A stretch of 55,127 nt of DNA, from the NCBI GenBank assembly GCA_903884455.1, contig CAISEW010000034.1:1-55127 (forward strand), read 5' to 3'. Below are positions 11,106 through 30,253 of this stretch, piece after piece. How positions within the stretch are numbered: the first letter of the stretch is position 1; every line of letters starts with the position of its first letter. Origin of the DNA: an uncultured Chloroflexota bacterium (GTDB lineage: Bacteria > Chloroflexota > Dehalococcoidia > GIF9 > AB-539-J10). The notes under the pieces were generated by a model. The model saw only the letters and a program-made list of their open reading frames with translations. It was not told where the DNA came from and did no database searches. Both the position numbers and the translations under genes were made by a program.

Positions 11106-12020
11106 CTATTTTTCCAATAACAGATTCACTGCCTTAAGAGGGCTCCCTTTGCGCCGAGCCCCCACAGTGCGACAAAACTCCTCGGCGTCTTTTATCGGCT
11201 CTAGAACTTGGTTTCTACCGTTGAGAAGCTTTATTTCAAACCCATAATTTTGGAGTTTGTACAATAGCTCCACCGGGTCAGTCCCCACATTTCTAAGTAG
11301 GTCTGGTATAAATTCCATGAGGATCTTCAGGCTATTGTTTCTCAGCACTCTTTCAGCCCCACTTAACACGAGTCCCTCCGCTCCTTCCACATCTATCTTC
11401 ACCAAGCCTATTCTGTCATCTCCGACTGTCCTCTCAAAAAAATCGTCCAGAGTTATTGTTTCCACTTCTAGACAATCGACGTTTTTCGAATACGTCAGGA
11501 CGTTGCCTCTCGCAAGGGAAGACGCATCGCCGACGGCCTTGACTACATAGAGTTTGGCCTTTCCGCTTGTGTTGGAAACCGCCTTATTAATCGCAACTAC
11601 ATTGTGGTAGCCATTCATCGCAATATTCTTACAAAGAAGTTCATAGTTGCGTGGTTCAGGTTCAAACGCATACACAACGCCTTCGCTACCAACTAGTTTC
11701 GCCGCAATTAGAGTGTAATAGCCAATATTCGCCCCGATGTCTACCACGACCATGCCGCTTCGTACTAGGTTCTTGAACAGTTCGGTTTCATATTTTTCAT
11801 ACTCGCCGTACATTAACAGCGTAGCACCAACAAACGTATCGGCCCCGTACATCTTATTTCCTTCGATGTTCAAGAAGGCAACCCCTTTAGGCCTAACAAA
11901 TTTCCTATAAAAATAGCGATATAATCCGGTAGTGCCACGAACTCTCCCCACCCCCATCCTGGAAGCAAAACGCCCCAACCTCGCATAGAGTTTAAGACGA
12001 AAAACGACGAATCTTTTCAT
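11106..12020 (-). CDS. FkbM family SAM-dependent methyltransferase
   Basis: A 304-residue FkbM-type O-methyltransferase, a family that commonly methylates hydroxyl groups of glycans. The SAM-binding motif is VVDIGANIGYYTLIAAKLVG (about residues 93-112), followed by YAFEPEPRNYELLCKNI. The FkbM-specific LVKIDVEGAEGLVLSGAERV lies near residue 207. Its ATG overlaps the stop of the upstream Wzx relic (ATGA), a trace of former translational coupling to an intact flippase gene. Now that Wzx is broken, expression may depend on read-through from the GT2 gene at 12387-13427. The target sugar is unknown. Confidence 0.88.
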   Translation of the reverse strand: MKRFVVFRLKLYARLGRFASRMGVGRVRGTTGLYRYFYRKFVRPKGVAFLNIEGNKMYGADTFVGATLLMYGEYEKYETELFKNLVRSGMVVVDIGANIGYYTLIAAKLVGSEGVVYAFEPEPRNYELLCKNIAMNGYHNVVAINKAVSNTSGKAKLYVVKAVGDASSLARGNVLTYSKNVDCLEVETITLDDFFERTVGDDRIGLVKIDVEGAEGLVLSGAERVLRNNSLKILMEFIPDLLRNVGTDPVELLYKLQNYGFEIKLLNGRNQVLEPIKDAEEFCRTVGARRKGSPLKAVNLLLEK

Positions 12021-13525: not shown

Positions 13526-14620
13526 TCACTTTGCTTTAATTATGCTGGCGATACTGTCCACTGCTGCTATCTCCAAGTCTGAGTATAAAGGAAGACACAA
13601 TACTCTATTTGCGATATCGGCAGCTTTCTGGAGCCTATATTTTTCAATCAAATCCATGCCTCTCTTTTTGAAGTAGCTAAAATTTACCGTCAACGGGAAG
13701 AAGTATTTTCTAGGCTTAATTCCATTTTTAATAAGCTCTGAATATATTCCATCCCTTGTTTCAATGTTCTCAAAACATACTGGCATGTAAATATAGTTAT
13801 GTTTGGATGCTATTATTTTCTGAAACTTCACACCTTTAGTGCCACGTAATCGCTCTCGGTAACGCTCATAAAGGCTTTTCCTCAGCCGGATTTTTTCATC
13901 AATATTTTCGAGGTTACAAAGTCCCATGACAGCCTGAAACTCATTCATCTTCGCATTTGTCCCGGGAAGAACAACATCTTCTTCGGACTTAATGCCATGA
14001 TTCCTTAACAACTTCAACTTCCCAAACAGTTCCTCGTCTTTAACAACGATAGCTCCGCCTTCAATAGTATTAAAAACCTTCGTAGCATGGAAACTTAATG
14101 TTGAAATGTCTCCATAATTCAAAACGGATTCATTTTTGTACTCAACACCAAAAGCATGGGCAGCATCGTAAATTAACTTCAACTTGTATTCAGTCGCAAT
14201 TTTCTGAAGTTCTTCAACATCGCAAGGATTGCCGTATACATGTGTGGCAAGAATTGCGCTGGTTTTCCGAGTTATCTTTTTCTCTACTTCTTTAGGATCA
14301 ATATTAAATGTATCAGGGTCAATATCTGCAAAGACAGGAGTTAGCCCTTCCCATAATATAACATTTGTGGTAGCTGAGAAGGTAAAAGGAGTTGTAATAA
14401 CATCGCCTCTGAGCTGAAGCACTTTTAAGGCAAGTTGAAGAGCCACGGTGCCATTAGAGACAAGGACTAAATTCTCAACGCTTAAATACTCTTCTAATTT
14501 CCCCTTCAGCAGTTGAACAAATTCACCATCATTCGTCAGCTGTCTGCTTGACCATATTTTTTTCAAATACTCAACGTATTTTTCAAGGTCGGGAAGATCT
14601 GACTTGGTAACATTTATCAT
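13526..14620 (-). CDS. DegT/DnrJ/EryC1 family PLP-dependent sugar aminotransferase
   Basis: A 364-residue aminotransferase that transfers an amino group to a 3- or 4-keto nucleotide sugar in the cytoplasm. The PLP-binding lysine is Lys181 in LSFHATKVFNTIEGGA, the pattern of FdtB/QdtB/DesV-like 3-aminotransferases. VSNGTVALQLAL (about residue 54) and LIYDAAHAFGVE (about residue 149, the PLP-ring Asp) are also present. Its start overlaps the stop of the upstream methyltransferase (ATGA), so the two are translationally coupled. It makes an amino sugar likely; the keto-sugar precursor could come from RfbB. A role with the DAHP-synthase module nearby is possible but speculative. Confidence 0.9.
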   Translation of the reverse strand: MINVTKSDLPDLEKYVEYLKKIWSSRQLTNDGEFVQLLKGKLEEYLSVENLVLVSNGTVALQLALKVLQLRGDVITTPFTFSATTNVILWEGLTPVFADIDPDTFNIDPKEVEKKITRKTSAILATHVYGNPCDVEELQKIATEYKLKLIYDAAHAFGVEYKNESVLNYGDISTLSFHATKVFNTIEGGAIVVKDEELFGKLKLLRNHGIKSEEDVVLPGTNAKMNEFQAVMGLCNLENIDEKIRLRKSLYERYRERLRGTKGVKFQKIIASKHNYIYMPVCFENIETRDGIYSELIKNGIKPRKYFFPLTVNFSYFKKRGMDLIEKYRLQKAADIANRVLCLPLYSDLEIAAVDSIASIIKAK

Positions 14621-15579
14621 TTTTTTACATTCTCCACAGCCTTATTAATATATTTTAACTTTGAAATTACTCGCCAAACAAAGCCTGGTAAGAGAATCGT
14701 CGGCCTGTATTCTTTTCGATAAGTGTATGATAAACTTCCTTCCGGCCAATCTTCCTCGAGATTGTTTGAGGCAGGAGAAGTATGTAGCTTCAACTGTTGA
14801 CCCTTGATAGCTACAAATGTACAGCGGTCTTCGTGTTCGAGACCAGGTCTTCCTAAATTCAGATGAGGCGCGTTAAAACACTCGTAGATCGAAGAGAATC
14901 CCGTGTGGGACAGAAGGTTGATTAACGACGGTCGTGTAAACCAAAAACTTGTATCGTTGCCAAAAGACGACCAAAGACGTTTTAATTTGGCTTCCTCGTT
15001 GTCGCTGTACGAGTGCTCTCGAACGGTGTGTCCGTGGTACTCTTTTCCTTTGTGTATCACTGACACCCTTGGATTTAAGCTAACGTGAGTATCAATGATT
15101 ACTAATTTTTCTACCATTTCATACATATTCTCAATAAATACAAAAACATCTGGGGTATTTAGATGATAGAGAATTCCACTACAAAGAAGCACATCATACC
15201 TTCCATATTTCTGAACAGATAGGTTTCTAACGTCATCTTGAATAAATTCTACGTTCTTAAGTCCAAGGGTTTCTTTGGCAAACAACGCTTTTTTAATGTT
15301 TGCTTCTCTGGCATCGACGCCGGTTACCTTAGCCCCGTGTAATGCAAATTCAATCGAAAATATCCCATCAAGACATCCTAAATCGAGAATCCGACATGAG
15401 TAAATTGGCTTTACTGACACATCCTGTATGATTTGTAGTACGCTTTTTAATCTCGTGTGAGGAATTCCCCGATTCCCTCCCGTCCACACGCCTTCGGGAA
15501 GAGGTATATCAAAGGTCCACTCTCCGTATTCTTTGACAAGTTGAGCAATACGGTTTTCGATTTCCTGCTTTGTCATCAT
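14617..15579 (-). CDS. Class I SAM-dependent methyltransferase (DUF1698/CmoB-like core)
   Basis: A 320-residue methyltransferase. The N-terminal half has RLKSVLQII and the SAM motif ILDLGCLDGIFSIEFALHGA (about residue 65), then VTGVDAREANIKKA and DVLLCSGILYHLNTP, like the tRNA-U34 CmoB core and several natural-product and glycan methyltransferases. The C-terminal part (from residue 160) is specific and unassigned. The frame is open from TTG at 15594, but ATG at 15579 follows a perfect GGAGGAG site. It overlaps the aminotransferase by 4 bp, which argues for a role on the same amino sugar rather than on tRNA (inference). Confidence 0.82.
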   Translation of the reverse strand: MMTKQEIENRIAQLVKEYGEWTFDIPLPEGVWTGGNRGIPHTRLKSVLQIIQDVSVKPIYSCRILDLGCLDGIFSIEFALHGAKVTGVDAREANIKKALFAKETLGLKNVEFIQDDVRNLSVQKYGRYDVLLCSGILYHLNTPDVFVFIENMYEMVEKLVIIDTHVSLNPRVSVIHKGKEYHGHTVREHSYSDNEEAKLKRLWSSFGNDTSFWFTRPSLINLLSHTGFSSIYECFNAPHLNLGRPGLEHEDRCTFVAIKGQQLKLHTSPASNNLEEDWPEGSLSYTYRKEYRPTILLPGFVWRVISKLKYINKAVENVKK

Positions 15580-15617
15580 TGTGCTCCTCCACAATTAATT
15601 TCATTGGTTAACATTTA

Positions 15618-16313
15618 TCATCCTTTTTCAGCCTCAATAATAAGAATTGATTCTTTTCTAGTTTCCAAACCGGAAAGCTCAACATGATCGCTTTTATTCC
15701 ATTCACACCTCGTCACATTCGTGAATCCAGCTTTCCTAAATAGATTTCTTAAGTCTTCTTCATTGTACAAATACTTATGCCCCCACCAATAAAAGGCCAT
15801 GTTGATCGCCATTCCTTTAGTTTTCACGAATTCGTATCCTGGCCCCGGAAACCAATCTTCATTCTTAAAATCCTTATCGTATTGTTGTATTGTCCAGTCA
15901 AGATCCGGCATTGCAATACGCAGAACACCTTCCTTCTTAAGACATCTATGAAACTCGCTGAGACCCTTTTTGCCTTCTTCAAGAGTAAGGTGTTCCAAGA
16001 GATGCTCGTTATAGATAAAGTCAACGCTATTATCATCGAAGGGAAGCCCCTTTCTTACGTCTAGTACAAGATCGGCACCTGGCTCTATGTCAATATTCAC
16101 CCAGCCGGGATATTTTACTTGACCACAACCTACATTCAGTTTCAGCGGAACATATTTCGTAAACTTTGCCACCTTGAACGGCTTTAAGGGGGATATAAGT
16201 GCTATTCTTTTATATATCCACCAATAAGCCTGGAAAGCTACTCGCAGGGGAGGTTTAAGCTTATTAGGAATTTTTGGTGCTAAGGATTCTAAGATGCTCA
16301 TTGTGTTCAACAT
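15618..16313 (-). CDS. Class I SAM-dependent methyltransferase, small glycan type
   Basis: A 231-residue methyltransferase. A basic, hydrophobic N-terminal segment (about residues 15-50) precedes the SAM-binding KLNVGCGQVKYPGWVNID (about residue 57). FIYNEHLLEHLTLEEG and GVLRIAMPDLDWTIQQYD follow. This 'LNVGCG..YPGW.NID' class is common in O-antigen and S-layer glycan loci. Its ATG overlaps the stop of the small upstream reading frame (TAATG). It runs with the next methyltransferase and the aminotransferase as a probable operon. Confidence 0.85.
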   Translation of the reverse strand: MLNTMSILESLAPKIPNKLKPPLRVAFQAYWWIYKRIALISPLKPFKVAKFTKYVPLKLNVGCGQVKYPGWVNIDIEPGADLVLDVRKGLPFDDNSVDFIYNEHLLEHLTLEEGKKGLSEFHRCLKKEGVLRIAMPDLDWTIQQYDKDFKNEDWFPGPGYEFVKTKGMAINMAFYWWGHKYLYNEEDLRNLFRKAGFTNVTRCEWNKSDHVELSGLETRKESILIIEAEKG

Positions 16314-16486
16314 TAATCAAGATTCTTTTTGTAAAACGGCATAGCCAAATCCTGATTCGCCAAATCCATTACCATTGTAAAGCATGTACTCTTCACTTTT
16401 ATGTTCATGTAATCGTCCTCAGATATTCTAATTGATTGGTCTCCAGCCGATCCTTTGCCCACATTATATCTGATTTGCACTGCCAT
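16313..16486 (-). CDS. Small hypothetical ORF or decayed gene tail, coupled to the methyltransferase
   Basis: A 57-codon frame starts MAVQIRYNVGKGSAG and ends FYKKNLD. Its stop overlaps the next ATG as TAATG, the arrangement of a translationally coupled gene. A second frame over the same bases reads EEYMLYNGNGFGESGFGYAV and also looks protein-like. This may therefore be the frameshifted tail of a lost gene rather than a working small protein. No family is recognised and the start has no good ribosome site. Confidence 0.35.
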   Translation of the reverse strand: MAVQIRYNVGKGSAGDQSIRISEDDYMNIKVKSTCFTMVMDLANQDLAMPFYKKNLD

Positions 16487-16637
16487 TAGCTACCGTTCTA
16501 CTGCGGGAGTTGAGATACATACGTAGCACTTGTGATACGGCCAGTGGTTATGACTTGTCACGAGGAATCACCAAGATGAGGAGGCCAGCCGGCTGCTACT
16601 TCCTAAGGGCAGGCTCTGTTTCCTCTCTCATATAATA
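16487..16637. other. Intergenic stretch, nothing recognised
   Basis: No gene, relic or hairpin was recognised on either strand. It separates the methyltransferase group from the transposase relic. Confidence 0.4.
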
Positions 16638-16922
16638 CCATCGTCATCTACTGGAATGGTCTGAGAAGATATATCCTGACCGCAGTAGACTACGTTACAT
16701 AGTCAAGCTGTGCCCGGCTGTATAAATCCAGTATCTCGACGGTCGGTTTGGGCAGGTAGCCTCCAAACTTGTGAGCACCATGGGCGCCTTATGCTCACCG
16801 ACGGAAGCGGGCGATGGGCCAAACTGGCTAGACCTCTGCACTGGAAGCACCTTGCTTGGCCACTAGTGTTGGCGACTGTCTACCCTGAACGGCAGATATT
16901 CCCCGTTTTCCGAGTTCTGTGA
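16638..16922 (+). pseudogene. Relic of an IS481/rve-type DDE transposase
   Basis: The plus strand reads TIVIYWNGLRRYILTAVDYV up to a TAG, then resumes with ARLYKSSISRRS and, further on, LMLTDGSGRWAKLARPL. These correspond to the 'D....G..RYILTAVDY.TR.A.ARLYKS.SS' core and the 'TDNGSE(F/W)AK' second-Asp block of integrase-core transposases, with at least one stop and one or more frameshifts. No inverted repeat ends were found. It lies just before the DAHP-synthase module, so it may mark how that module arrived. Confidence 0.5.
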
Positions 16923-17120
16923 GTCCACTATCCGTAAGTCTTTTGGGATCGTTGTTTGTCATGCCCCGTAATGACACGTGCGGGTGAGGGCGTGCACACT
17001 ATTATGATACAATTAGTGAATTGGGAATTGTGCATTCGTATCCAGAATGTCTTGTCGGTGTCTAGGTACTAGGTGACGAGAAAAGCATCTAAGCCGACAA
17101 AAACAAGAGGACATGCAGTA
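16923..17120. other. Leader region of the DAHP-synthase module
   Basis: No gene. A TATGATACAAT sequence near 17003-17013 could be a -10 region, but no good -35 was found. AGAGG at 17106-17110 precedes the ATG at 17121. Confidence 0.3.
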
Positions 17121-18455
17121 ATGGAAGATAAATGGACACCAAGCAGCTGGAGGAGTTTTCCAGTGAAGCAACAGCCAGATTGGCCCGATGGAAAGCATTT
17201 AGAAGAGGTTGTTGCCAGGTTGCGTCAAATGCCGTCGTTAGTCTTCTCGGGCGAAACGAGAAAATTGAGACAGGCACTCACAGGCGTTAATGAGGGCAAC
17301 AATTTCATTTTGCAGGTTGGTAATTGTGCAGAAAGCTTCAGCGACTGTCATGGTCCGAAAATTCACAATTTCCTAAGGATCGTCCTGCAAATGGCCTTAG
17401 TCGTAAAGTACAAGACAGGCAGGCAGGTAATAAAAATCGGAAGAATTGGCGGCCAATATGCCAAACCACGTTCAGATGATTACGAAAGCATTGATGGGAA
17501 AGAGATTCCAAGCTATCGTGGCGACATGGTAAACGATTGGGCGCCGACGTACGAAGCCCGTATACCAAATCCGGATAGATTGTTGGAGGGCTACTTTCGC
17601 TCAGCCGCTACTCTGAATCTTATTAGGGCTTTCACTCAGGGGGGATACAACGAGATCAGGAACTTAAGAGATTGGAGGGAACATTTCTTCTCGCGGGATA
17701 TATCGAGGCTACCGTATTACATGAAGTTGGAAGAGGATCTGACATCTGCATTGGAAAACAAGGAGATAGCGTTCAATGCGACATCAGAGAGAGACGAGAT
17801 ATTCATATCACATGAGGGACTACTATTGGACTACGAAGAAGCGTTCACACGCATTGATACAACATTTGGGGGTTACTACGACACAAGCGCCCACCTAGTC
17901 TGGATTGGCAATAGGACAAGACAATCCAACGGTGCACATGTTGAATTTGCAAGAGGTATTGGCAATCCCATCGGAGTAAAGGTCGGTCCGGATTGCGATC
18001 CCGATGACCTCCTAACCTTGATTAAGAAAATAAACCCCAGAAACGAAGCTAATAAACTGGTATTAATCAGCAGGATGGGGCAAGATAGAATACGAAAAGA
18101 TCTTAAGTCCCTAATTCAGGTCATTAAGAGCAACAAGTTAAATGTTGTCTGGGTTTGTGACCCCATGCACGGTAATACCTTCGCCCATAATGGTTATAAG
18201 GTCAGGGCGTTTGACGATATCGCAGCCGAGATTAGGTCATTTGTAAAGGTGTGCAGGAATGAAAATGTGATTCCAGGCGGGGTTCATTTAGAAATAACTG
18301 CCGAAAACGTAACTGAATGCATTGGCGGAATCAACGGATTGACTTTATCGGGTATAAGCGACAACTATGCCACGAAGGTTGATCCGAGGTTGAATGCAGC
18401 TCAAGCTCTGGAGACGGCCTTCATCGTTAGTGAATCATTAAGCAGGCGGGATTAA
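17121..18455 (+). CDS. Class II 3-deoxy-7-phosphoheptulonate (DAHP) synthase
   Basis: Condenses phosphoenolpyruvate with erythrose-4-phosphate (or an amino analogue) to a C7 acid sugar. The 444-residue protein has all class II landmarks: LQVGNCAESF with the metal Cys, IGRIGGQYAKPRS, VKVGPDCD, ISRMGQDRIRKDL, VWVCDPMHGNT with the metal His, HLEITAENVTEC with the metal Glu, and VDPRLNAAQALE with the metal Asp. The frame opens at a GTG (17073), but ATG at 17121 fits the family start. It is followed 14 bp later by an oxidoreductase and then an ATP-grasp gene, not by shikimate genes. This resembles dedicated DAHP or aminoDAHP synthases of secondary pathways rather than housekeeping AroA. Confidence 0.92.
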   Translation: MEDKWTPSSWRSFPVKQQPDWPDGKHLEEVVARLRQMPSLVFSGETRKLRQALTGVNEGNNFILQVGNCAESFSDCHGPKIHNFLRIVLQMALVVKYKTGRQVIKIGRIGGQYAKPRSDDYESIDGKEIPSYRGDMVNDWAPTYEARIPNPDRLLEGYFRSAATLNLIRAFTQGGYNEIRNLRDWREHFFSRDISRLPYYMKLEEDLTSALENKEIAFNATSERDEIFISHEGLLLDYEEAFTRIDTTFGGYYDTSAHLVWIGNRTRQSNGAHVEFARGIGNPIGVKVGPDCDPDDLLTLIKKINPRNEANKLVLISRMGQDRIRKDLKSLIQVIKSNKLNVVWVCDPMHGNTFAHNGYKVRAFDDIAAEIRSFVKVCRNENVIPGGVHLEITAENVTECIGGINGLTLSGISDNYATKVDPRLNAAQALETAFIVSESLSRRD

Positions 18456-18469
18456 TCGGAAATTGGAGA

Positions 18470-19609
18470 ATGAAAGAAGACAAGACTAACAAACTAAGAG
18501 TGGCTTTCGTTGGCGGGGGCATGAATTCTGCTGTTGGATTGGCGCATTACTCAGCAATCTCCTTGGACAATGTCTTTGAGCTGGTTGCCGGGTGTTTCAG
18601 CAGACGTAGGGAGATTAACTATGCTAGTGCAGAAAGATACAAGGTACCCAAGAATAGAACATATGACAGCATTGATGAGTTAGTAACGAGCGAAAAAAAC
18701 AAGGTCGACGCGGTTGTTGTTCTGACACCCACAAATCAACACGCCTCTCAAGTCATTAGTCTCGTTAACAAGGATGTACCTGTTATCTGCGAGAAAACTC
18801 TGGGTTGTTCAACGGATGAAGTGGAGCAAATCAGGGCCGCCCTGCAGAAAAAGAATGGTTTCCTGGCAGCGATATACAATTACTTAGGATATCCGATTAT
18901 TCGAGAACTGAGACACATGGTACAAAAAGGTACTCTGGGCAAAATAAATCACATACAGATAGAAATGCCGCAAGAAGGATTCATTCTGATTAATCGGGAG
19001 GGAAAACCCATTATTCCGCAGGACTGGAGGCTGAAAGATGGGGTCATACCTACAATCTCGCTTGACCTGGGTGTTCACCTACATATGTTTATCAAATACC
19101 TTACAGATGAGAGTCCCATCAACGTTGTTGCCAGAAGCGAGTCAATTGGCAGCTTTTCAGAAATCGTTGATAACGTAAACTGCATTATTGAGTACTCCAA
19201 CAACCTTACGTGTAATATGTGGTACAGCAAGATCGCAATCGGTAACAGAAACGGGTTAAAGATCAGAATCTACGGCAGCAAAGCATCTGCTGAATGGCTG
19301 CAGGAGGTACCGGAAATTCTGCATCTTGCTGATGTGAGAGGCAATCGGTGGAAGGTAGACCGTGGCAATCAGGAGGTAGAAATATCTAACCAGCAACGAT
19401 ATACCCGTTTTAAAGTCGGTCATCCGGCCGGCTTCATAGAAGCATATGCGAATTACTATCAGGATATTGCCAATGCTTTACAGGACTACAAGAGGAGCAA
19501 CATTGTCAGTTTTAAGGACTGCTTCGGTATTGAGGAAGCATATGAGGGCGTTCGATTGTTGGAAGCTATTCAAAAATCCAGCAAGTCACGGGCATGGGAA
19601 AGAGTGTAG
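18470..19609 (+). CDS. Gfo/Idh/MocA family NAD(P)-dependent oxidoreductase
   Basis: A 379-residue dehydrogenase of sugars or cyclitols. The Rossmann domain begins RVAFVGGGMNSAVGLAHY, followed by AVVVLTPTNQHASQVI and the family's catalytic-lysine motif as VICEKTLGCS (usual form EKP). The C-terminal half has ISLDLGVHLHMFIKYLTDE, with the His typical of the active site, and GHPAGFIEAYANYYQDIANAL. It starts 14 bp after the DAHP synthase and is surely co-transcribed with it. In kanosamine and AHBA pathways a member of this family (NtdC, RifL) oxidises a sugar for amination beside an aminoDAHP synthase, but the parallel here is only contextual. Confidence 0.9.
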   Translation: MKEDKTNKLRVAFVGGGMNSAVGLAHYSAISLDNVFELVAGCFSRRREINYASAERYKVPKNRTYDSIDELVTSEKNKVDAVVVLTPTNQHASQVISLVNKDVPVICEKTLGCSTDEVEQIRAALQKKNGFLAAIYNYLGYPIIRELRHMVQKGTLGKINHIQIEMPQEGFILINREGKPIIPQDWRLKDGVIPTISLDLGVHLHMFIKYLTDESPINVVARSESIGSFSEIVDNVNCIIEYSNNLTCNMWYSKIAIGNRNGLKIRIYGSKASAEWLQEVPEILHLADVRGNRWKVDRGNQEVEISNQQRYTRFKVGHPAGFIEAYANYYQDIANALQDYKRSNIVSFKDCFGIEEAYEGVRLLEAIQKSSKSRAWERV

Positions 19610-19684
19610 CACGCTGTTGTAACTGGTTCGGTAAGAGCCAGTTTTCGCTGTCTGAGAGCGGCCGCCTTCCCATGAGAAATCAGT

Positions 19685-20839
19685 ATGAGAAAACGGATAT
19701 TACTAGTAGACACGAATTTCTCAGCCAAACCTATCTATGATTATCTGGTTAAGACAGGGGCTGAAGTCTACGTGGTTGGTGGAAGACCACAGGATGCGTT
19801 GGCAAAATCGGTAGAAAATTACATTAATCTGGACTACTCAAATACCAGTGAAGTAAAATCGCTAATTAAAAGGCTGAAGATCGATTTTCTTGTGCCGGGT
19901 GGCAATGATGTTTCTTACAAAGTCTGTTCTGAAGTAAATTCGGACATTCCTTTCTACAATATTGATCCGGTTGAAGTTAATGAGACCATCAACAGCAAAG
20001 AAAAATTCAGGGAATTTTCCACGGCTCTTGGGCTACATGTCCCGCACATTGTCGAGCCTGACAAAGTTGATGATTTTTTGCCGGTGATAATCAAACCCGT
20101 GGATGCTTACAGCGGGCACGGTATGACTGTAATTCGTAGGAAGGATAGAAATAAAGTCGAAACCGGCATTAAAGTGGCCAAGGGACTTTCGAAGTCTAAG
20201 CGCTGCTTGATAGAGGAGTTTGTACCGGGTCAATTATACAGTCATTCAGCATTTGTTATCGATGGCGAAATTATGATTGATTTCATCGTTGAGGAACATT
20301 GTGTTGTCAACCCCTATGTAGTTGATACCAGCCGCGTGGTTTTCGATTTTGACAAGAGAATCTTGAAACAAATTCGTGCAGATATTACTTCATTGGCAAA
20401 AGAATTAGATTTAGCAGATGGTCTGGTTCACACTCAATTTACTTGCAACGGCAGCTCTTTTTGGATTATTGAAGTCACCAGGCGATGCCCCGGTGATTTG
20501 TACAGCATGCTGATAGAATGCAGCACCGGATTCCCTTATGCGGAGTATTATGCAAAGCCTTTCCTCAATCAAAAACCAGATTTCTCTGACATGAAGCTCA
20601 ATAAGAGGTTTGTCATCAGACATACCATCACGCAATCGGATGAAGGCTGTTTCTACTCGCTAGACTTCAATTTGCCGGCATGCATTGAAAAACTGGTCCC
20701 ACTAGCGCTTACTGGCGATAGGGTTAAAGGCAGTCCTTTTGGTCGCATTGGGCTGATATTTCTCAGTGCGAAGACAGAAAAAGAAATGGGTGATCTATTC
20801 CAAAAATTTCTTAGTAGAGAATTGTATTTAATTCAATAA
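19685..20839 (+). CDS. ATP-grasp family ligase, specificity unknown
   Basis: A 384-residue enzyme that should activate a carboxylate as acyl phosphate and join it to an amine or thiol. The N-terminal preATP-grasp domain starts RILLVDTNFSAKPIYDYL. The ATP-grasp fold shows VIIKPVDAYSGHGMTVIRR (phosphate loop, about residue 135), CLIEEFVPGQLYSHSAF (about residue 176) and WIIEVTRRCPGD, the metal-binding end (about residue 260). A further C-terminal domain is present. It is third in the DAHP-synthase module, 75 bp after the oxidoreductase. A carboxylated C7 product would be a logical substrate. No close function can be named. Confidence 0.85.
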   Translation: MRKRILLVDTNFSAKPIYDYLVKTGAEVYVVGGRPQDALAKSVENYINLDYSNTSEVKSLIKRLKIDFLVPGGNDVSYKVCSEVNSDIPFYNIDPVEVNETINSKEKFREFSTALGLHVPHIVEPDKVDDFLPVIIKPVDAYSGHGMTVIRRKDRNKVETGIKVAKGLSKSKRCLIEEFVPGQLYSHSAFVIDGEIMIDFIVEEHCVVNPYVVDTSRVVFDFDKRILKQIRADITSLAKELDLADGLVHTQFTCNGSSFWIIEVTRRCPGDLYSMLIECSTGFPYAEYYAKPFLNQKPDFSDMKLNKRFVIRHTITQSDEGCFYSLDFNLPACIEKLVPLALTGDRVKGSPFGRIGLIFLSAKTEKEMGDLFQKFLSRELYLIQ

Positions 20840-23257: not shown

Positions 23258-23674
23258 CTAACAGTTGCTTGAGTTTGTTGAGTTTGTTGGGTTCCTTGGG
23301 TGCTTGTCTTTGCTCAGGAGATATTTGATAAAGCCGGAGATCAGGCGAGCTACTTCATCAGATTTGGAGTATACTTCGTTAAATTTTTCCTGAGTGATAT
23401 AGCCCTGGTCTAAGGCAGCGTAGAGTTGGCTTTGAACTTCGGCTGCTGAGCCTTTAGCAATGAATAGAAACTGGGTGAATTCCCTCATTGATCTCCTTGA
23501 AAATCCCTCAGCTATATTAGACATTATTGAAACTACTGCACTTTGAATCTGCTCCCCAAACTTATAATCACTGCCGAACTTTTTGTTAGATTTCACAGCA
23601 TTGTAGACCATCTTCACCAGAACCCTTGCTTCCTGCCAAGCTTTTATATCTTCAAATCTCTCGATCTTCGTCAC
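23258..23674 (-). CDS. Four-helix bundle protein (23S rRNA intervening-sequence family)
   Basis: A 138-residue all-helical protein of the IVP/S23 family, with TKIERFEDIKAWQEARVLVK at the start and the central IMSNIAEGFSRRSMREFTQF that is diagnostic. Its biochemical function is unknown; members occur inside rRNA intervening sequences and, as here, as free genes. The longer frame to 23758 is an overlap with the HicB-like gene. The GTG at 23674 shares GTGA with that gene's stop and begins exactly where the family does. The C-terminal tail NPTNSTNSSNC comes from a short direct repeat in the DNA. It lies 3 bp upstream of the wzx start. Confidence 0.85.
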   Translation of the reverse strand: MTKIERFEDIKAWQEARVLVKMVYNAVKSNKKFGSDYKFGEQIQSAVVSIMSNIAEGFSRRSMREFTQFLFIAKGSAAEVQSQLYAALDQGYITQEKFNEVYSKSDEVARLISGFIKYLLSKDKHPRNPTNSTNSSNC

Positions 23675-23928
23675 TCTAACTCTACAAACTCCATAAACGC
23701 TATAAACCCTGTAAACTCCACAAAAAACTCGGCTTCTTTGTGCGATGGCTTGGCCCAATCATAGGGTATATCGTTGTCAAAGTGGTCAATGTGGAATTCA
23801 ATAGCTTCTTTTATTCTTTCCGTCGTTTCCTCTACACTTGCCCCCGTAGCTATACAGCCAGGCAAATCTGGACAGTAAGCAGAATAATTACCATCAGCCT
23901 TTTCAATTACAATTGTATATTTAAACAT
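23671..23928 (-). CDS. HicB-like antitoxin-family protein
   Basis: An 85-residue protein with the HicB N-terminal fold: MFKYTIVIEKADGNYSAYCP, then DLPGCIATGASVEETTERIK and AIEFHID. HicB proteins usually neutralise a HicA mRNA interferase, but no HicA gene is adjacent and no DNA-binding C-terminal domain is present. The last 20 residues are of unusual sequence, produced by the same small repeats that precede the next gene. Its stop overlaps the GTG start of the four-helix bundle gene. Confidence 0.8.
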   Translation of the reverse strand: MFKYTIVIEKADGNYSAYCPDLPGCIATGASVEETTERIKEAIEFHIDHFDNDIPYDWAKPSHKEAEFFVEFTGFIAFMEFVELE

Positions 23929-24237: not shown

Positions 24238-25107
24238 TCAGGCAATATGACCTCTGGCTACCAGGTAATCCTTTAACGCTTCCGGCCAGGGTCTCATGTC
24301 ATCCATGCCCAGGAGCCGCAGGTGGGAATTATCCAGCACCGAGTAGCGGGGCCTCCTGGCTTTCTGGGGATACTGGTCTGAAGTTATGGGGACGACCGGA
24401 GTCGTTATGCCAGCCAGCTTAAGTATCTCCGTGGTGAACTGGTACCAGGAGCAGGCGCCTCTGTTGGTGATATGGAATATGCCGTAATAGTCGGTGATCA
24501 TCAGCTGGACTATTTTCCGGGCTAAGTCCACGGTGTAGGTGGGGGAAAAGACCTGGTCATTGACCACCTTGAGCTCATCACGCTCCTTAGCCAGCCTGAG
24601 CATGGTCTCAATGAAGTTACCACCTTTGCCCATGGAGCCGGCAACGCCGAAAAGACCCGAAGTCCTGACGATGAAGTGCCTGAGACAAAAATGGCGAACA
24701 AGGTTTTCCCCAGCAAGCTTGGATTTCCCATAAATGCTAAGGGGGACAGGTGTATCGAATTCGGTGTAGGGAGTAGTTCGGGGCTCAGCCTCGCCGCCGA
24801 AGACGTAGTCTGTGCTGAGGTGGACCAGCCGGGCTCCGAGTTCTTGAGCAACCACAGCGACATTGCGGGCTCCCAGGGCATTCACCGAGAAGGCTTTATC
24901 TTTTTCATCTTCGCAGTCATCAACCCGGACATAGGCGGCGGTATTTATGATTATGCCAGGCTTATATTTGCTGAACGCCTGCTTCACCGAACTCATGTCG
25001 CTGATTTCGATGTCTTTATCGGTGAGCGGGATGAGTTCAAAATCTCGAAGGACTTTACAAAGGTCGGTGCCTAGTTGTCCATTGGCGCCCGTGACTAAGA
25101 CTTTCAT
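24238..25107 (-). CDS. rfbD: dTDP-4-dehydrorhamnose reductase
   Basis: Last step of dTDP-L-rhamnose synthesis: NADPH-dependent reduction of dTDP-4-keto-L-rhamnose. The 289-residue SDR protein starts MKVLVTGANGQLGTDLCKVL. It has HLSTDYVFGG (about residue 96), the catalytic YGKSKLAGENLV (about residue 128) and RTSGLFG. It is the last gene of the rfbA-rfbC-rfbB-rfbD run; its ATG overlaps the rfbB stop (ATGA). Length is normal. The product supplies rhamnose to the glycosyltransferases of this locus. Confidence 0.95.
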   Translation of the reverse strand: MKVLVTGANGQLGTDLCKVLRDFELIPLTDKDIEISDMSSVKQAFSKYKPGIIINTAAYVRVDDCEDEKDKAFSVNALGARNVAVVAQELGARLVHLSTDYVFGGEAEPRTTPYTEFDTPVPLSIYGKSKLAGENLVRHFCLRHFIVRTSGLFGVAGSMGKGGNFIETMLRLAKERDELKVVNDQVFSPTYTVDLARKIVQLMITDYYGIFHITNRGACSWYQFTTEILKLAGITTPVVPITSDQYPQKARRPRYSVLDNSHLRLLGMDDMRPWPEALKDYLVARGHIA

Positions 25108-26108
25108 CTATGAGAATACATTCTCTCGTAATATTTGGCATACTCGCCGCTTTTGATTGACCGCCACCAGGACTCATTCTTTAGATACCAGTCGACGGTA
25201 GCGTTCAAGGCTTTTTCAAAGGAGTAAGCTGGCTTCCAGCCCAGTTCTGTGGTTATCCTGGTGCAATCCACAGCATAGCGGCGGTCGTGGGCCGGACGGT
25301 CGGTAACGAATTGTATCAGGCTCTGTGGTTTGTTCAGCAGCTCCAGCAGCTTGCGGATAAGCTCCAGGTTGGTCTTCTCATTGCCGCCGCCGATATTATA
25401 TATCCCTCCGAGCTGGCCTTTCTGAATGACGGCATCCAGAGCCCGGCAATGGTCACCTACAAAGATCCAGTCCCTGATGTTGAGGCCGTCACCATAGACG
25501 GGGACTGGTTTATTCTCCAGGGCGTTGGTGATAACCAGGGGAATCAACTTCTCGGGAAACTGGTATGGCCCTAAGTTGTTGGTGCAGCGGGTGACGATTG
25601 CGGGTAGATGATGAGTTTTGAAGTAGGCGCGACATAAAAGGTCGGCAGCAGTTTTGCTGGCTGAGTACGGGCTGTTAGGAGACAAAAGTGATTCCTCAGT
25701 AAAGTGGCCGCTATTAATGGAGCCGTAGACTTCATCAGTGGACACCTGGAGAAATCTTTGAATTCCGTGCTTCTTTGCCCCTTCAAGGAGCACCTGGGTC
25801 CCTTTAACATTAGTTTCGATGAATGGCGAGGCGTCCAGGATGCTGCGGTCAACGTGGCTCTCAGCAGCAAAGTTCACAATGACATCGAGTCCCTGGCTCA
25901 GTAGCTTGTCTACCAGCTTCCTATCAGCTATATCTCCCTTGACAAAATGGTAGCCGGGCTGGTCTTGTATATCCTTTAAGTTTTCCAGGTTGCCGGCATA
26001 GGTGAGCTTGTCCAGATTGGTTATCTCCCAATCCGGGTGTTCTTGCCGGATATGGCGAATGAAATTGCTGCCGATGAAGCCCGCGCCGCCGGTGACAAGT
26101 AGCTTCAT
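25104..26108 (-). CDS. rfbB: dTDP-glucose 4,6-dehydratase
   Basis: Converts dTDP-glucose to dTDP-4-keto-6-deoxyglucose with bound NAD+. The 334-residue extended SDR protein has GGAGFIGSNFIRHI, FAAESHVDRSI, the active-site VSTDEVYGSI (Asp and Glu, about residue 122), YSASKTAADLL (Tyr and Lys, about residue 148) and RCTNNLGPYQFPEKLIPLVI. It overlaps rfbC upstream and rfbD downstream by 4 bp each. Besides rhamnose, its keto product could feed the DegT aminotransferase at 13526-14620. Confidence 0.96.
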   Translation of the reverse strand: MKLLVTGGAGFIGSNFIRHIRQEHPDWEITNLDKLTYAGNLENLKDIQDQPGYHFVKGDIADRKLVDKLLSQGLDVIVNFAAESHVDRSILDASPFIETNVKGTQVLLEGAKKHGIQRFLQVSTDEVYGSINSGHFTEESLLSPNSPYSASKTAADLLCRAYFKTHHLPAIVTRCTNNLGPYQFPEKLIPLVITNALENKPVPVYGDGLNIRDWIFVGDHCRALDAVIQKGQLGGIYNIGGGNEKTNLELIRKLLELLNKPQSLIQFVTDRPAHDRRYAVDCTRITTELGWKPAYSFEKALNATVDWYLKNESWWRSIKSGEYAKYYERMYSHR

Positions 26109-26674
26109 TTTGCTTCCTTTGCGTAGTAAAACCTGATATCCGCATTCTTCAGAGAAGGTAATTTTCCGTCTTTTTCGGATAGAATCGGCTCCTTAACAGG
26201 CCACTCGATATTCAGGTCGTCATCATTCCAGATAATACCAGCTTCAGATTCAGCGGAGTAGACATTGGTGGTTTTATATATGACTTCGGCAATTTCTGAA
26301 AGGACACAGAAACCATGGGCAAGGCCTGCTGGAACATAGAGAATATTTTTATTTTCTTCCGATAAGATTACCCCTACCCATTTACCCCAGGTAGGCGAGC
26401 CCTTTCTTATGTCAACGGAGACATCAAATATCTCACCCTTTATCGCCCTCACCAATTTTCCCTGTGCAAAGGGTGGGTTTTGATAATGCAATCCCCTCAG
26501 AACCCCTTTACTGGAATGAGAGTGATTCTCCTGGACGAAATTTCCCTTTATGCCAGCAGTAACAAAATCCGGCATCTTGTATGTTTCCATAAAGAAGCCT
26601 CTCTCATCCTCAAAAACCTTTGGTTCTATCAAGACTACCGCCGGAATCCCTAACCTCTTGAAAACAAATGGCAT
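26105..26674 (-). CDS. rfbC: dTDP-4-dehydrorhamnose 3,5-epimerase
   Basis: Epimerises C3 and C5 of dTDP-4-keto-6-deoxyglucose. The 189-residue cupin has the family blocks FFMETYKMPDF, FVQENHSHSSKGVLRGLHYQ (catalytic His, about residues 47-66), FDVSVDIRKGSPTWGKWVGV and LAHGFCVLSEIAEVIYKTT. Spacing to rfbA upstream is 15 bp and it overlaps rfbB by 4 bp, so the four genes form one operon. Confidence 0.95.
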   Translation of the reverse strand: MPFVFKRLGIPAVVLIEPKVFEDERGFFMETYKMPDFVTAGIKGNFVQENHSHSSKGVLRGLHYQNPPFAQGKLVRAIKGEIFDVSVDIRKGSPTWGKWVGVILSEENKNILYVPAGLAHGFCVLSEIAEVIYKTTNVYSAESEAGIIWNDDDLNIEWPVKEPILSEKDGKLPSLKNADIRFYYAKEAK

Positions 26675-26689
26675 GTTGTTCCTTTGTTC

Positions 26690-27757
26690 CTAGAGTTCTA
26701 CTCTGGCATCATCGCCAACAAAGAGCGTGGTTGCCTTGAAACCATCTCCCCGCCTGGTCACCACTGCACACCGACCGATGACACAGTCACTCAACCGCTC
26801 GATATTGCGAATAGAGCAGTTTTCCAGGACAACCGAGTGTTCCACGCCAGACCGTTCAATAGTCGTTCCCGCAGCAATGCTGGTGAAAGGACCAATATAG
26901 GAGTCCCTGATATGGCAGTTATCACCAATAGATACCGGTCCCCTGACGGTGCTTTTTTCTATGCTTGTTCCTTTTCCGACTTCGACTCTGCCTGCCACCT
27001 GGCTGGCAGCATCAATCTCACCTCTTAAATCCCGTTTCATAAATTCATCAAGGACAATACGGTTAGCTTCCAAGAGGTCATCTTTTTTTCCGGTATCCAG
27101 CCACCAGCCGGTGAGGATGTGACTGCGCACCTTTTTGCCAGAATCAATGAGCTGTTGAATGGTATCGGTTATTTCCAGTTCTCCTCGCCATGAGGGTTTT
27201 ATCCTATCTATCGCCTGGTGTACGTCTCTGGTGAAGAGGTAAACGCCGGGCACTGCCAGATTTGTTTTCGGTTCGCGTGGTTTTTCCACAATCCTGGTTA
27301 TCTCTCCTTTTTCGTTTAGTTCGGCAACGCCGAACAGGCGTGGGTCAGGGACTTCCTTAAGCAGAACAAGTGCATCAACTTTATTCGTAGTAAATTCTTT
27401 AACAAAGCTCCTGACGCCGCCCTGAATAAGATTATCGCCAAGAAACATCAGGAAGGAAGAATCGCCCAGGAAGTCTCGGGCTGTCTTAACAGCATGGGCA
27501 AGACCCAGAGGTTCGGATTGCAAAATGTAGGTAATTTGAGCATTCCACCTTGAACCATCTCCCACCGCTTCCTTAATCCCCTGCCCGGTTTCCGGTGAAA
27601 TAATAATACCAATATCCCTTATTTCAGCCTCAACGACTTGCTCCAAAACGTAGTAAAGTATTGGTTTATTAGCTACCGGAATAAGTTGCTTAGACAGGGT
27701 GTTGGTCAGTGGCTTAAGTCTAGTTCCCTTACCGCCAGCCAATATTAATGCTTTCAT
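26690..27757 (-). CDS. rfbA: Glucose-1-phosphate thymidylyltransferase, long form
   Basis: Activates glucose-1-phosphate with dTTP, the first step to dTDP-rhamnose. The 355-residue protein starts [18 protein letters not shown], the nucleotidyltransferase signature, and has FLGDNLI (metal Asp), [19 protein letters not shown] and [15 protein letters not shown]. From about residue 240 a left-handed beta-helix domain follows ([17 protein letters not shown]). This is the long RmlA form found in archaea, actinobacteria and Chloroflexi rather than the 290-residue enterobacterial form. It is the first gene of the rfb operon; 126 bp separate it from the STT3 stop. Confidence 0.93.
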
Positions 27758-27883: not shown

Positions 27884-30253
27884 TCAGGACTCATTTGAGC
27901 CAACATACTCAAAAATCTTCACACTGGGCACTGTCTGTCCATACATTGCTACTGTAGCGTTGGATTGATATACGAGCTCATAGCTGCTCAATTCCTCGAG
28001 AGGCACGATGCTGTTAAAAGGATTATCACCCACTATTCTATAATTTCCCGATGTCTGGTTTGCGACATAAGCTTGAGCATCTTCATAGGTGGGGAAATAT
28101 TGCCCACTGGTGACTTGCTTATACTTCTGTCCTTGATATTCTGTCTCTTCATAAGATATGACTATCGGTTGCGTGGGAGTCACGGCTTTGCCGTCAAAGT
28201 TGTATAGCCTGGCCACAGTAGAGTTGTAGTAAGCGGGGTAGTATAACATTGCCCATTGCCCGCTACTTCCGCTACTCGATGGAGGCAAGTAATAATATTC
28301 GTAAAACTCATCCACGCTCCCACCAGCCCACGCCGCCATGGCATAGAACTTGGAAGTTGCCATTTGATAGTCAATCACCACATATTTCGTACCTTCTTTG
28401 TCCGCGACTTCGTTAGCTGAACTTTCGTTCAGGGCGGTAAAGAACTGGCCGGCTTCCTTAGCCCCAATCTGGCCAGGATTGGCATTGGGTATGCGATGGG
28501 CAATTTGCATTATAAAGTAGCCATAGTCCCACCAGGACATCACGCCATAGGCAGATTCAGGGTACTGGAACGGAGTCTTGTATAGCTTATAATAAAAATC
28601 GGGGTCACCAAAAGGCTCGGGGCTGTTATCCCTCAACCACAGAAGCGAGGTATACCACCCCTCGTCTATAACATAATTTGGTGACCCGGCAAGTGCTTTG
28701 GCCATGGGAATATTGGGGAAAAAGGCCACGAAAAAGATGACTATTCCGACAACGATGACCCTCACCCAGGCACCTCTGGGTTGCATGAATGTTTTTGGCT
28801 TCGCTTTCTCCTTGGCTTTCTTCTCCTTCCTCCTGAATTTTTTAACTGCTCCCACCACTTCTTTAGACTTAGCCAGTAATTTGCGTAGGCCAGCAAGGTC
28901 CAGCATTTTCCAGGAGAAATACCCTGTGAGCAAGGCAGCGTTTACGGCATAGTAATAACCGAAGCGGCGCTGGCTCAGGACTGCTATCAACATTATTATG
29001 CTCCATACCAGAAACAAGGCTTTGTCAGCACTTTTGTCCTTAATAGCAACATAAATAAGCATGCCAATGGAAACAAATGCGATGAAGAAGGAGGCGGTGA
29101 AGTTAGTCCAGGCCATTTGAAAAGTGAAACTGCCATTGGGGAAAAGAAGAGGTTGCACCTCCATGATAGTCAGCGCAGCACCACCCGGGGCGAAGATGAT
29201 GAATTTGCCGAGCATGGACTGAAGCAGAGAGGGATTGATGGCATGAAAAGCAGCAAGACCAATTCCAGCCAGTCCCACTAAGGTCAAGGGATAGTAAACA
29301 GGCTTCCAAGCCTTGCGTGCCATGAGCCGCGAGATAATACTCAAGACTATAGGTACCACTATGGCAATTATCAGAGATACACGATCAATGGTACCTATGT
29401 TGCCAAATATGGGAAGAAGCATGAGGAAGGCAATAAGGAAAACAGGAGTGCCCACAATACACAGATAGTCACTCGATTTATGCCTTAAGTGGTCCACGAT
29501 GAACTGAATCACCAGGTAAGCAAATATGATGAAGATGAAGAGCAGTCCACCTATCCAGAAAAGCAGATAAATACCCAGGAAGACGCCAGCGAGCAGGGTA
29601 TAGACGAGAGGCTTGGTGATAGTCGACCAGTCTCTACTTAGAATGTGGCTGAAGGAAATGTCTCTTTCTCGAGCCCGCTTAATGGCCATTATTAGGAAGA
29701 GCATGAACACGGTGCTGAACAGAGTCTCAGCTACATGGTGGTCGGTAAAGCCAAGCAGGGAACGATGCAGAAATTCGCCGGGCAAGATGGCAACCAGGGC
29801 GGCTGCAATTACGCCCGCCCAGCGGTTAAACAGTTCCTTGCCGATAAAGTACACCGGGATGAGCGTCAGAGTACCCAGAATAGGGGGCACGTAAGCGGCC
29901 ACCACTTCCATGCTATGCAGAGTTGCTGCCCCTCCCTTAACAAGCAGAATAATGACAGCGATAAGCCAGCCGAAGAATGGGCGAGTAAGTCCTCCCCCAC
30001 CACCAGGGTAGAATACGTAGGGGTCAAAGGTATTGTAGTGGGGAAAGTTATGAACCAGAGTTTCTATGTTGCGCATGTAATAGTAGGCATCAGTTTCTCG
30101 GAACCACACCCAGGTATTGTTATTGACAAAAATTTGGTCATGAGGCAGGACAGCACGTAAGTACCATGATATGCCACAGAGAGCCGCTAAAATTATGCCT
30201 ACTATAACTATTGGGAGAAACTTTCGTTTCTGCTCTGGACTTTGCTCGCTCAC
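27884..30253 (-). CDS. STT3/AglB-type oligosaccharyltransferase
   Basis: Would transfer a lipid-linked glycan to Asn in N-x-S/T sequons on the outer face of the membrane. The 789-residue protein has about 13 hydrophobic segments over residues 15-525, including one after a Lys-rich cytoplasmic loop (near 485-505), then a soluble domain. Catalytic motifs are present: RETDAYYYMR (first acidic motif, about residue 52), GFTDHHVAE (second, about residue 168), WWDYG (574-578) and the D..M...KF.AM motif (628-638), the archaeal AglB form. The soluble domain carries four sequons (NES, NST, NQT, NAT). Bacterial STT3 of this type is rare outside Campylobacter PglB. It lies upstream of rfbACBD in the same direction. 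Confidence 0.92.
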   Translation of the reverse strand: MSEQSPEQKRKFLPIVIVGIILAALCGISWYLRAVLPHDQIFVNNNTWVWFRETDAYYYMRNIETLVHNFPHYNTFDPYVFYPGGGGGLTRPFFGWLIAVIILLVKGGAATLHSMEVVAAYVPPILGTLTLIPVYFIGKELFNRWAGVIAAALVAILPGEFLHRSLLGFTDHHVAETLFSTVFMLFLIMAIKRARERDISFSHILSRDWSTITKPLVYTLLAGVFLGIYLLFWIGGLLFIFIIFAYLVIQFIVDHLRHKSSDYLCIVGTPVFLIAFLMLLPIFGNIGTIDRVSLIIAIVVPIVLSIISRLMARKAWKPVYYPLTLVGLAGIGLAAFHAINPSLLQSMLGKFIIFAPGGAALTIMEVQPLLFPNGSFTFQMAWTNFTASFFIAFVSIGMLIYVAIKDKSADKALFLVWSIIMLIAVLSQRRFGYYYAVNAALLTGYFSWKMLDLAGLRKLLAKSKEVVGAVKKFRRKEKKAKEKAKPKTFMQPRGAWVRVIVVGIVIFFVAFFPNIPMAKALAGSPNYVIDEGWYTSLLWLRDNSPEPFGDPDFYYKLYKTPFQYPESAYGVMSWWDYGYFIMQIAHRIPNANPGQIGAKEAGQFFTALNESSANEVADKEGTKYVVIDYQMATSKFYAMAAWAGGSVDEFYEYYYLPPSSSGSSGQWAMLYYPAYYNSTVARLYNFDGKAVTPTQPIVISYEETEYQGQKYKQVTSGQYFPTYEDAQAYVANQTSGNYRIVGDNPFNSIVPLEELSSYELVYQSNATVAMYGQTVPSVKIFEYVGSNES

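Follow-up and report, generated by a model that had tools for sequence, protein, structure and literature searches.

The nearest described counterpart of the gene cassette reported here is the Shewanella oneidensis sfmABCDE operon, which is needed for flagellin modification and whose products include SfmA, a synthase with a NeuB domain, the reductase SfmC, the methyltransferase SfmD and the ATP-grasp protein SfmE (PMC3765264). The modification is a polyhydroxylated group of 236–264 Da (C9H16O7 and up, methylated) on nonulosonic acid, and loss of SfmE leads to a smaller mass shift (PMC3765264). Our cassette lies in a 55,127-nucleotide stretch of DNA from an uncultured Chloroflexota bacterium (contig CAISEW010000034.1; the whole stretch is called the window below). 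It comprises three plus-strand genes, encoding a class II 3-deoxy-D-arabino-heptulosonate 7-phosphate (DAHP) synthase (DAHPS-II; 17121–18455), a Gfo/Idh/MocA NAD-dependent oxidoreductase (Gfo; 18470–19609) and an ATP-grasp ligase (19685–20839), with a DegT/DnrJ/EryC1/StrS aminotransferase gene (DegT; 13526–14620) on the minus strand ∼2.5 kb from the DAHPS-II gene. Each locus brings together synthase, reductase, methyltransferase and ATP-grasp genes, the ATP-grasp proteins being likened by description. However, sfmABCDE has a NeuB-type synthase, a thiamine pyrophosphate enzyme and a short-chain dehydrogenase/reductase where the window cassette has DAHPS and Gfo, and none of these three was identified beside the cassette in the part of the window scanned. 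The scleric acid cluster of Streptomyces sclerotialus also pairs a DAHPS (SclD) with an ATP-grasp protein (SclG), which is proposed to form the last bond, but its DAHPS feeds chorismate to benzoate, its product is a small molecule, and the sections of the source used here describe no Gfo or DegT (PMC6335953). In enterobacterial flagellin glycosylation islands, the flagellin gene is accompanied by genes for DegT, FkbM and a GT41-methyltransferase, as in one of our loci (L153), but a search of the main text of that paper gave no mention of ATP-grasp, Gfo or DAHP (PMC4875605).

Searches of the open-access literature revealed no DAHPS described in a glycan-modification system of this kind, and no paper linking DAHPS with O-antigen or viosamine with ATP-grasp. 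In the tetronate-perosamine of Vibrio cholerae O1, an activated 3-deoxy-aldonic acid is amide-linked to a 4-amino-4,6-dideoxyhexose, which resembles a form of the cassette, described below, with an AMP-ligase and an acyl carrier protein (ACP); the acid has four carbons, and we know of no DAHPS, Gfo/Idh or ATP-grasp among its genes. The RifH/RifL/RifK and NtdABC systems share DAHPS-II and/or Gfo/Idh plus DegT chemistry with the window cassette, but the window DegT and Gfo fall nearer to other subfamilies. To our knowledge neither system has an ATP-grasp enzyme, and to that extent an earlier note on this DNA was right to call the ATP-grasp partner new to the aminoDAHP/kanosamine set. Beyond RifH and NtdABC the claim to novelty does not hold, since sfmABCDE (PMC3765264) and the scleric acid cluster (PMC6335953) contain an ATP-grasp gene. 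Overall, we are confident that the window genes form a cassette dedicated to glycan decoration, most likely a mobile one.

The three genes are intact and closely spaced, with intergenic gaps of 14 and 75 bp, in agreement with the earlier note. The 444-aa DAHPS-II (ATG at 17121, in a frame open from 17073) covers positions 1–438 of the 438 of PF01474 (571 bits, E = 1.3e-171). Its four metal ligands, which the note had also recognized, are C69, H350, E391 and D421, aligning with C87, H369, E411 and D441 of Mycobacterium tuberculosis (Mtb) AroG. Residues for phosphoenolpyruvate and erythrose 4-phosphate are kept (R108, K115, R117, R265, K287 and R318), apart from one checked position where Mtb E283 corresponds to N264. 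DAHPS-II is not the housekeeping enzyme of this organism, because the genome (1.56 Mb in 63 contigs, 99.5% complete) also encodes a class I DAHPS, extended at its N terminus (C38:20921–21637), and one dehydroquinate (DHQ) synthase (AroB, on C3), and because DAHPS-II and Gfo were not found in the 399 other genomes of the phylum sample. The class I gene has ribF-, tyrS-, serC- and serA-like neighbours (named by eye), class I DAHPS and DHQ synthase are also present in nearly all relatives, and the archaeal DHQ synthase (PF01959) is absent from the genome. The neighbours of the class I gene and the lack of PF01959 mark the genome as bacterial, against the archaeal origin that its archaeal-type STT3 (see below) might suggest. 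DAHPS-II was carried by this genome alone both among 100 relatives and in the phylum-wide sample of 400, and at the threshold of the cassette clade Gfo, too, was confined to it. As DAHPS-II also scores below the cut-off of the housekeeping class II equivalog TIGR01358 (537 versus 614.7 bits), the cassette most likely arrived by transfer.

The genes of the cassette occur together in other bacteria. We searched 84,980 species genomes for DAHPS-II (closest identity 51%) and examined the neighbourhoods of the 80 nearest loci; only one, in the deltaproteobacterial metagenome-assembled genome (MAG) L005, had the cassette, in the order ATP-grasp, Gfo (48% identical), FkbM, DAHPS (50%), one intervening gene and DegT. 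Two further carriers emerged when 395 genomes from the phylum of L005 were searched with a Gfo profile: L107, another deltaproteobacterial MAG, has all five of these genes, and L108 has just ATP-grasp and Gfo. The complete trio of DAHPS-II, Gfo and ATP-grasp was thus found in two deltaproteobacterial MAGs and, as described below, one IMG/VR contig. Two Rhizobium plasmids carry ATP-grasp (34%) and Gfo (49%) without DAHPS, facing a DegT gene whose product is 46.6% identical to that of the window; this copy beside the Gfo–ATP-grasp pair indicates that DegT belongs to the cassette, as the earlier note had supposed. Culturable Rhizobium carriers are strains SRDI969 and WSM1274. The Gfo clade was present in 4 of 398 Pseudomonadota genomes. 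In one of them (L152), a Rhizobium relative, homologues of rmlA, rmlC and rmlD stand beside DegT–Gfo–ATP-grasp. A second has the L153 flagellin island, which contains DegT (46%), ATP-grasp, Gfo, FkbM and a GT41-methyltransferase and adjoins a flagellin-like gene; in a third, Gfo and an AMP-ligase lie in what looks like a pseudaminic-acid operon (pseB/pseC/pseI-like by eye), and the fourth has an ATP-grasp–Gfo–FkbM trio in a surface-glycan (O-antigen-type) locus. ATP-grasp adjoins or is near Gfo in most other lineages of the ATP-grasp type. Gfo is the marker gene of a wider cassette family, in which the Gfo–ATP-grasp pair is more widespread than the trio with DAHPS.

At least ten further lineages with Gfo were present in IMG/VR. 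Type A contigs (L099, L100, L101, L115 and L116) have the order short DegT-like gene, large protein, Gfo, ATP-grasp. L100/L136 adds a DAHPS-II that is 52.5% identical to that of the window, above any match from the genomes, with partners at 49% (Gfo) and 48% (ATP-grasp) identity. L100 is viral according to IMG/VR, and no structural genes were recognized in its 19 kb; L101 is convincingly phage, being a 219-kb record with a tail-fibre gene. The short DegT-like protein (∼210 aa; L100:3790–4419, with counterparts in L099, L101, L115 and L116) matches only the N-terminal part of its family and is possibly inactive or of other function. In most of the phage contigs, the large protein (∼725 aa) is encoded next to Gfo of the cassette; L100:5815–7995 matches both GT2 and radical S-adenosylmethionine (SAM) families, as in a fusion, and has counterparts in L101, L115 and L116 and more distant ones in L124 and L126 (28–60% by BLAST).

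In type B contigs (L105, L106, L124, L126 and L127/L128), the order is DegT, RmlB-like, HMW1C-like (GT41), PglD-like, AMP-ligase, Gfo and ACP, although it varies somewhat and some of the contigs are truncated; a tail gene is present in L106. These contigs hold a seemingly complete set for sugar acylation and glycosyltransfer. L104, which has head and neck genes, encodes DegT, a hexapeptide transferase, AMP-ligase, Gfo, ACP, a radical SAM protein, FkbM and a class I DAHPS of 305 aa (L104:13406–14323), whose gene overlaps the preceding FkbM gene and which seemingly lacks the N-terminal extension of the chromosomal enzyme of the window genome. In relatives of the window cassette, ATP-grasp is therefore replaced by AMP-ligase and ACP (with or without a hexapeptide acyltransferase), showing that ATP-grasp is not obligatory, and class II is replaced by class I DAHPS. 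Two ‘Bacteriophage sp.’ records with DAHPS-II (MT835764 and MT836719; 44–46%) were set aside as likely bacterial contigs: they are marked UNVERIFIED, show no phage genes by eye and have no visible cassette partners. A search of deposited phage records with ATP-grasp gave no match.

The four cassette DAHPSs (window, L005, L107 and L100/L136) formed one clade with support of 99/95, checked by inspecting all 200 bootstrap trees. Although long branches meet there, the clade holds without L136, without the window or without the actinobacterial rows, and it lies outside phenazine-linked, pabB-linked and housekeeping sequences. The natural-product references included L140 (phenazine genes) and L138 (pabB), with RifH not among the sequences; the row named PA1901_5uxm represents P. 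aeruginosa 5uxm, in our view PA2943 and not the phenazine-linked PA1901. All four cassette enzymes share a private motif, CHGPxIH, shortly after the metal-binding Cys (CHGPKIH at residues 76–82 in the window), and all four have His at the position of Mtb Arg100, which is Arg in 82 of the 87 other DAHPS sequences. On a tree of 19 Gfo homologues (∼41–51% identity), at least four changes are needed to explain the presence of DAHPS. One private DAHPS-II clade accompanying scattered Gfo lineages, with a class I DAHPS in another, means that DAHPS was gained or lost repeatedly together with Gfo, and makes a chance neighbourhood unlikely. The earlier note had named two outcomes as refuting its proposal: a DAHPS-II that is the sole DAHPS of its genome or clusters with housekeeping enzymes, and genes that do not co-occur elsewhere. 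Instead, a class I enzyme is present, the DAHPS-II clade stands apart and the trio recurs in L005, L107 and L100.

The trio is flanked by two minus-strand glycan operons, and rmlABCD, a flippase-like protein, several glycosyltransferases and STT3 surround it, which bears out the glycan locus that the earlier note had described. Likewise, no further shikimate genes were seen among those window open reading frames (ORFs) that were annotated, a subset of the total. The operon divergent from the trio consists of DegT (364 aa, PF01041) and two SAM methyltransferase genes recognized by Pfam (14617–15594, with a 4-bp overlap between its frame and the start of DegT, and 15618–16313; both minus strand), which from their position are possible members of the DegT operon. 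Between the divergent operons lie 807 bp without long frames (16314–17120), and no Rfam families were found in the window. Downstream of the trio are a glycosyltransferase, the flippase-like protein, rmlD, rmlB, rmlC and rmlA (24238–27757, minus strand, identified by sequence, rmlA_long being above cut-off) and an archaeal-type STT3/AglB oligosaccharyltransferase (27884–30253, minus strand; TIGR04154, 652 bits, above cut-off). The position of such an archaeal-type enzyme next to rmlABCD in a bacterial genome is an observation in its own right, as is a 166-aa ORF in the glycan locus (23258–23758, minus strand) with a four-helix-bundle (S23-type) look by eye. An FkbM-family methyltransferase is encoded at 11106–12020 (minus strand; PF05050); FkbM genes also occur near Gfo in L005, L107, L104, L153 and L155, although the window protein is only distantly like that of L005 (27% over 138 aa).

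Comparison with characterized families suggests a function for each partner. The nearest solved relative of DegT is DesI (2po3; 192 bits), with NtdA (121), the Kdo8N transaminase (5k8b; 110) and the 3-amino-5-hydroxybenzoate (AHBA) synthase RifK (96) far behind, and the NCBIfam DesI equivalog was the best of 18 models listed, albeit under its cut-off (273.7 versus 650 bits). The DegT product is therefore most likely a 4-amino-4,6-dideoxyhexose, the predicted acceptor amine, which fits the rml genes in the window and in L152; rmlDBCA is predicted to supply the dTDP-sugar substrate. Gfo (379 aa) has matches for its Rossmann and C-terminal domains (PF01408, PF02894 and PF22725), and its catalytic K109, D199 and H203 are invariant in 11 aligned sequences. 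The nearest folds to its model (predicted local distance difference test (pLDDT) score 84) are the inositol dehydrogenase homologues 3dty and 7d5n. The ATP-grasp protein (384 aa) matches PF13535 (32.3 bits, cut-off 27; E = 9e-8), and its model (pLDDT 88) resembles 4dim and the L-amino acid ligases 3vot and 4wd3, so that a carboxylate-amine ligase is predicted.

We infer the reactions, the redox position, the amide and the acceptor as follows. DegT would convert the RmlA/RmlB product to a dTDP-linked 4-amino-4,6-dideoxyhexose, while the cassette DAHPS would condense phosphoenolpyruvate with erythrose 4-phosphate, giving the C7 keto acid DAHP. Gfo would carry out one NAD-dependent redox step on DAHP, either reducing C2 or oxidizing a ring hydroxyl, ATP-grasp would activate the carboxylate and join the acid as an amide to the amino sugar, and this sugar would be built into a surface glycan, possibly after O-methylation. 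An acid made by DAHPS and Gfo, activated by ATP-grasp or AMP-ligase and accepted by the DegT product is suggested by the exchange in relatives of ATP-grasp for AMP-ligase, ACP and hexapeptide transferase, a common way to activate an acid and transfer it to an amino sugar. The acid could derive directly from DAHP or be a later acid of the shikimate trunk; both fit. The product class that the earlier note proposed, a carboxylated C7 sugar or an amide of such a sugar, would still be the most likely. The whole scheme as written, with a DAHP-derived C7 acid amide-joined to the amino sugar, is tentative, and we think it somewhat more apt to fail in some part than to hold throughout.

Several points weigh against this scheme. 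No DAHPS was found near Gfo in ∼13 of 17 lineages (several of them contig fragments), where host DAHP or another acid must serve; the ATP-grasp proteins of the window and L005 are just 26% identical; phage type A has only the short, different DegT-like gene; a phosphatase for the 7-phosphate was not identified; and none of the carriers has a known glycan structure. The inositol-dehydrogenase-like relatives of Gfo would equally suit a carbocyclic shikimate-type acid, which leads to an alternative in which the extra DAHPS does no more than feed the host shikimate trunk. In this case the acid ligated to the amino sugar would be either a carbocyclic one that Gfo draws from the trunk (dehydroquinate, dehydroshikimate, shikimate or quinate type) or a chorismate-derived one that the ligase takes. 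AroB is present in the host, carriers without a DAHPS gene would draw on the host pathway, and extra DAHPS genes serve this purpose in natural-product clusters, with phenazine genes in L140, with pabB in L138 and, as SclD, with ATP-grasp SclG in the scleric acid cluster (PMC6335953). However, the cassette loci examined showed neither chorismate-using genes nor any others of the shikimate pathway, and the cassette DAHPSs keep to their own clade. We consider this alternative rather unlikely, though the most probable of the rivals.

The place of DegT raises another possibility, namely that Gfo oxidizes and DegT then aminates DAHP to an amino-heptulosonic acid like 8-amino-Kdo, whose amine ATP-grasp acylates with some other acid. 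Gfo and DegT enzymes form amino sugars as pairs elsewhere (WlbA/WlbE and NtdC/NtdA), and their genes are direct neighbours in Rhizobium and close together in L153; yet DegT is closer to DesI than to the Kdo8N transaminase, and it adjoins an RmlB-like dehydratase in phage type B and a pseB-like gene in L154, pointing to a nucleotide-sugar substrate made without Gfo. We judge this order of events improbable. Least likely of all is an aminoDAHP/kanosamine route as in RifH/RifL/RifK or NtdABC: the superfamilies DAHPS-II, Gfo/Idh and DegT are shared, but the closest relatives of DegT are not NtdA or RifK and those of Gfo are inositol dehydrogenase homologues, and the earlier note's choice of this route as the nearest parallel is not upheld. 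That a spare DAHPS simply landed in a glycan island would agree with frequent gene exchange in such islands and with the many Gfo lineages that have no DAHPS nearby; but three unrelated settings combine a DAHPS of one clade with the same Gfo and ATP-grasp, and a fourth has a class I enzyme, and we regard this explanation as very unlikely.

The amide-linked C7 acid extends, as a possible but slightly more doubtful claim than the scheme for the window, to a new class of glycan substituent in phages and bacteria of several phyla, made by Gfo and a dedicated DAHPS, of class II except for the class I enzyme of one contig, and attached by ATP-grasp or AMP-ligase/ACP. The modular swaps, of ATP-grasp for AMP-ligase and ACP and of class II for class I DAHPS, make this substrate hypothesis testable with single enzymes. 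If it is true, the entry reaction of aromatic biosynthesis serves surface-sugar decoration, a use of DAHP that we did not find described in the open literature. The presence of the cassette in phage contigs suggests that the decoration matters in phage–host contact, and its recurrence in unrelated bacteria and contigs classed as viral points to a chemical decoration of surface sugars that has yet to be described.

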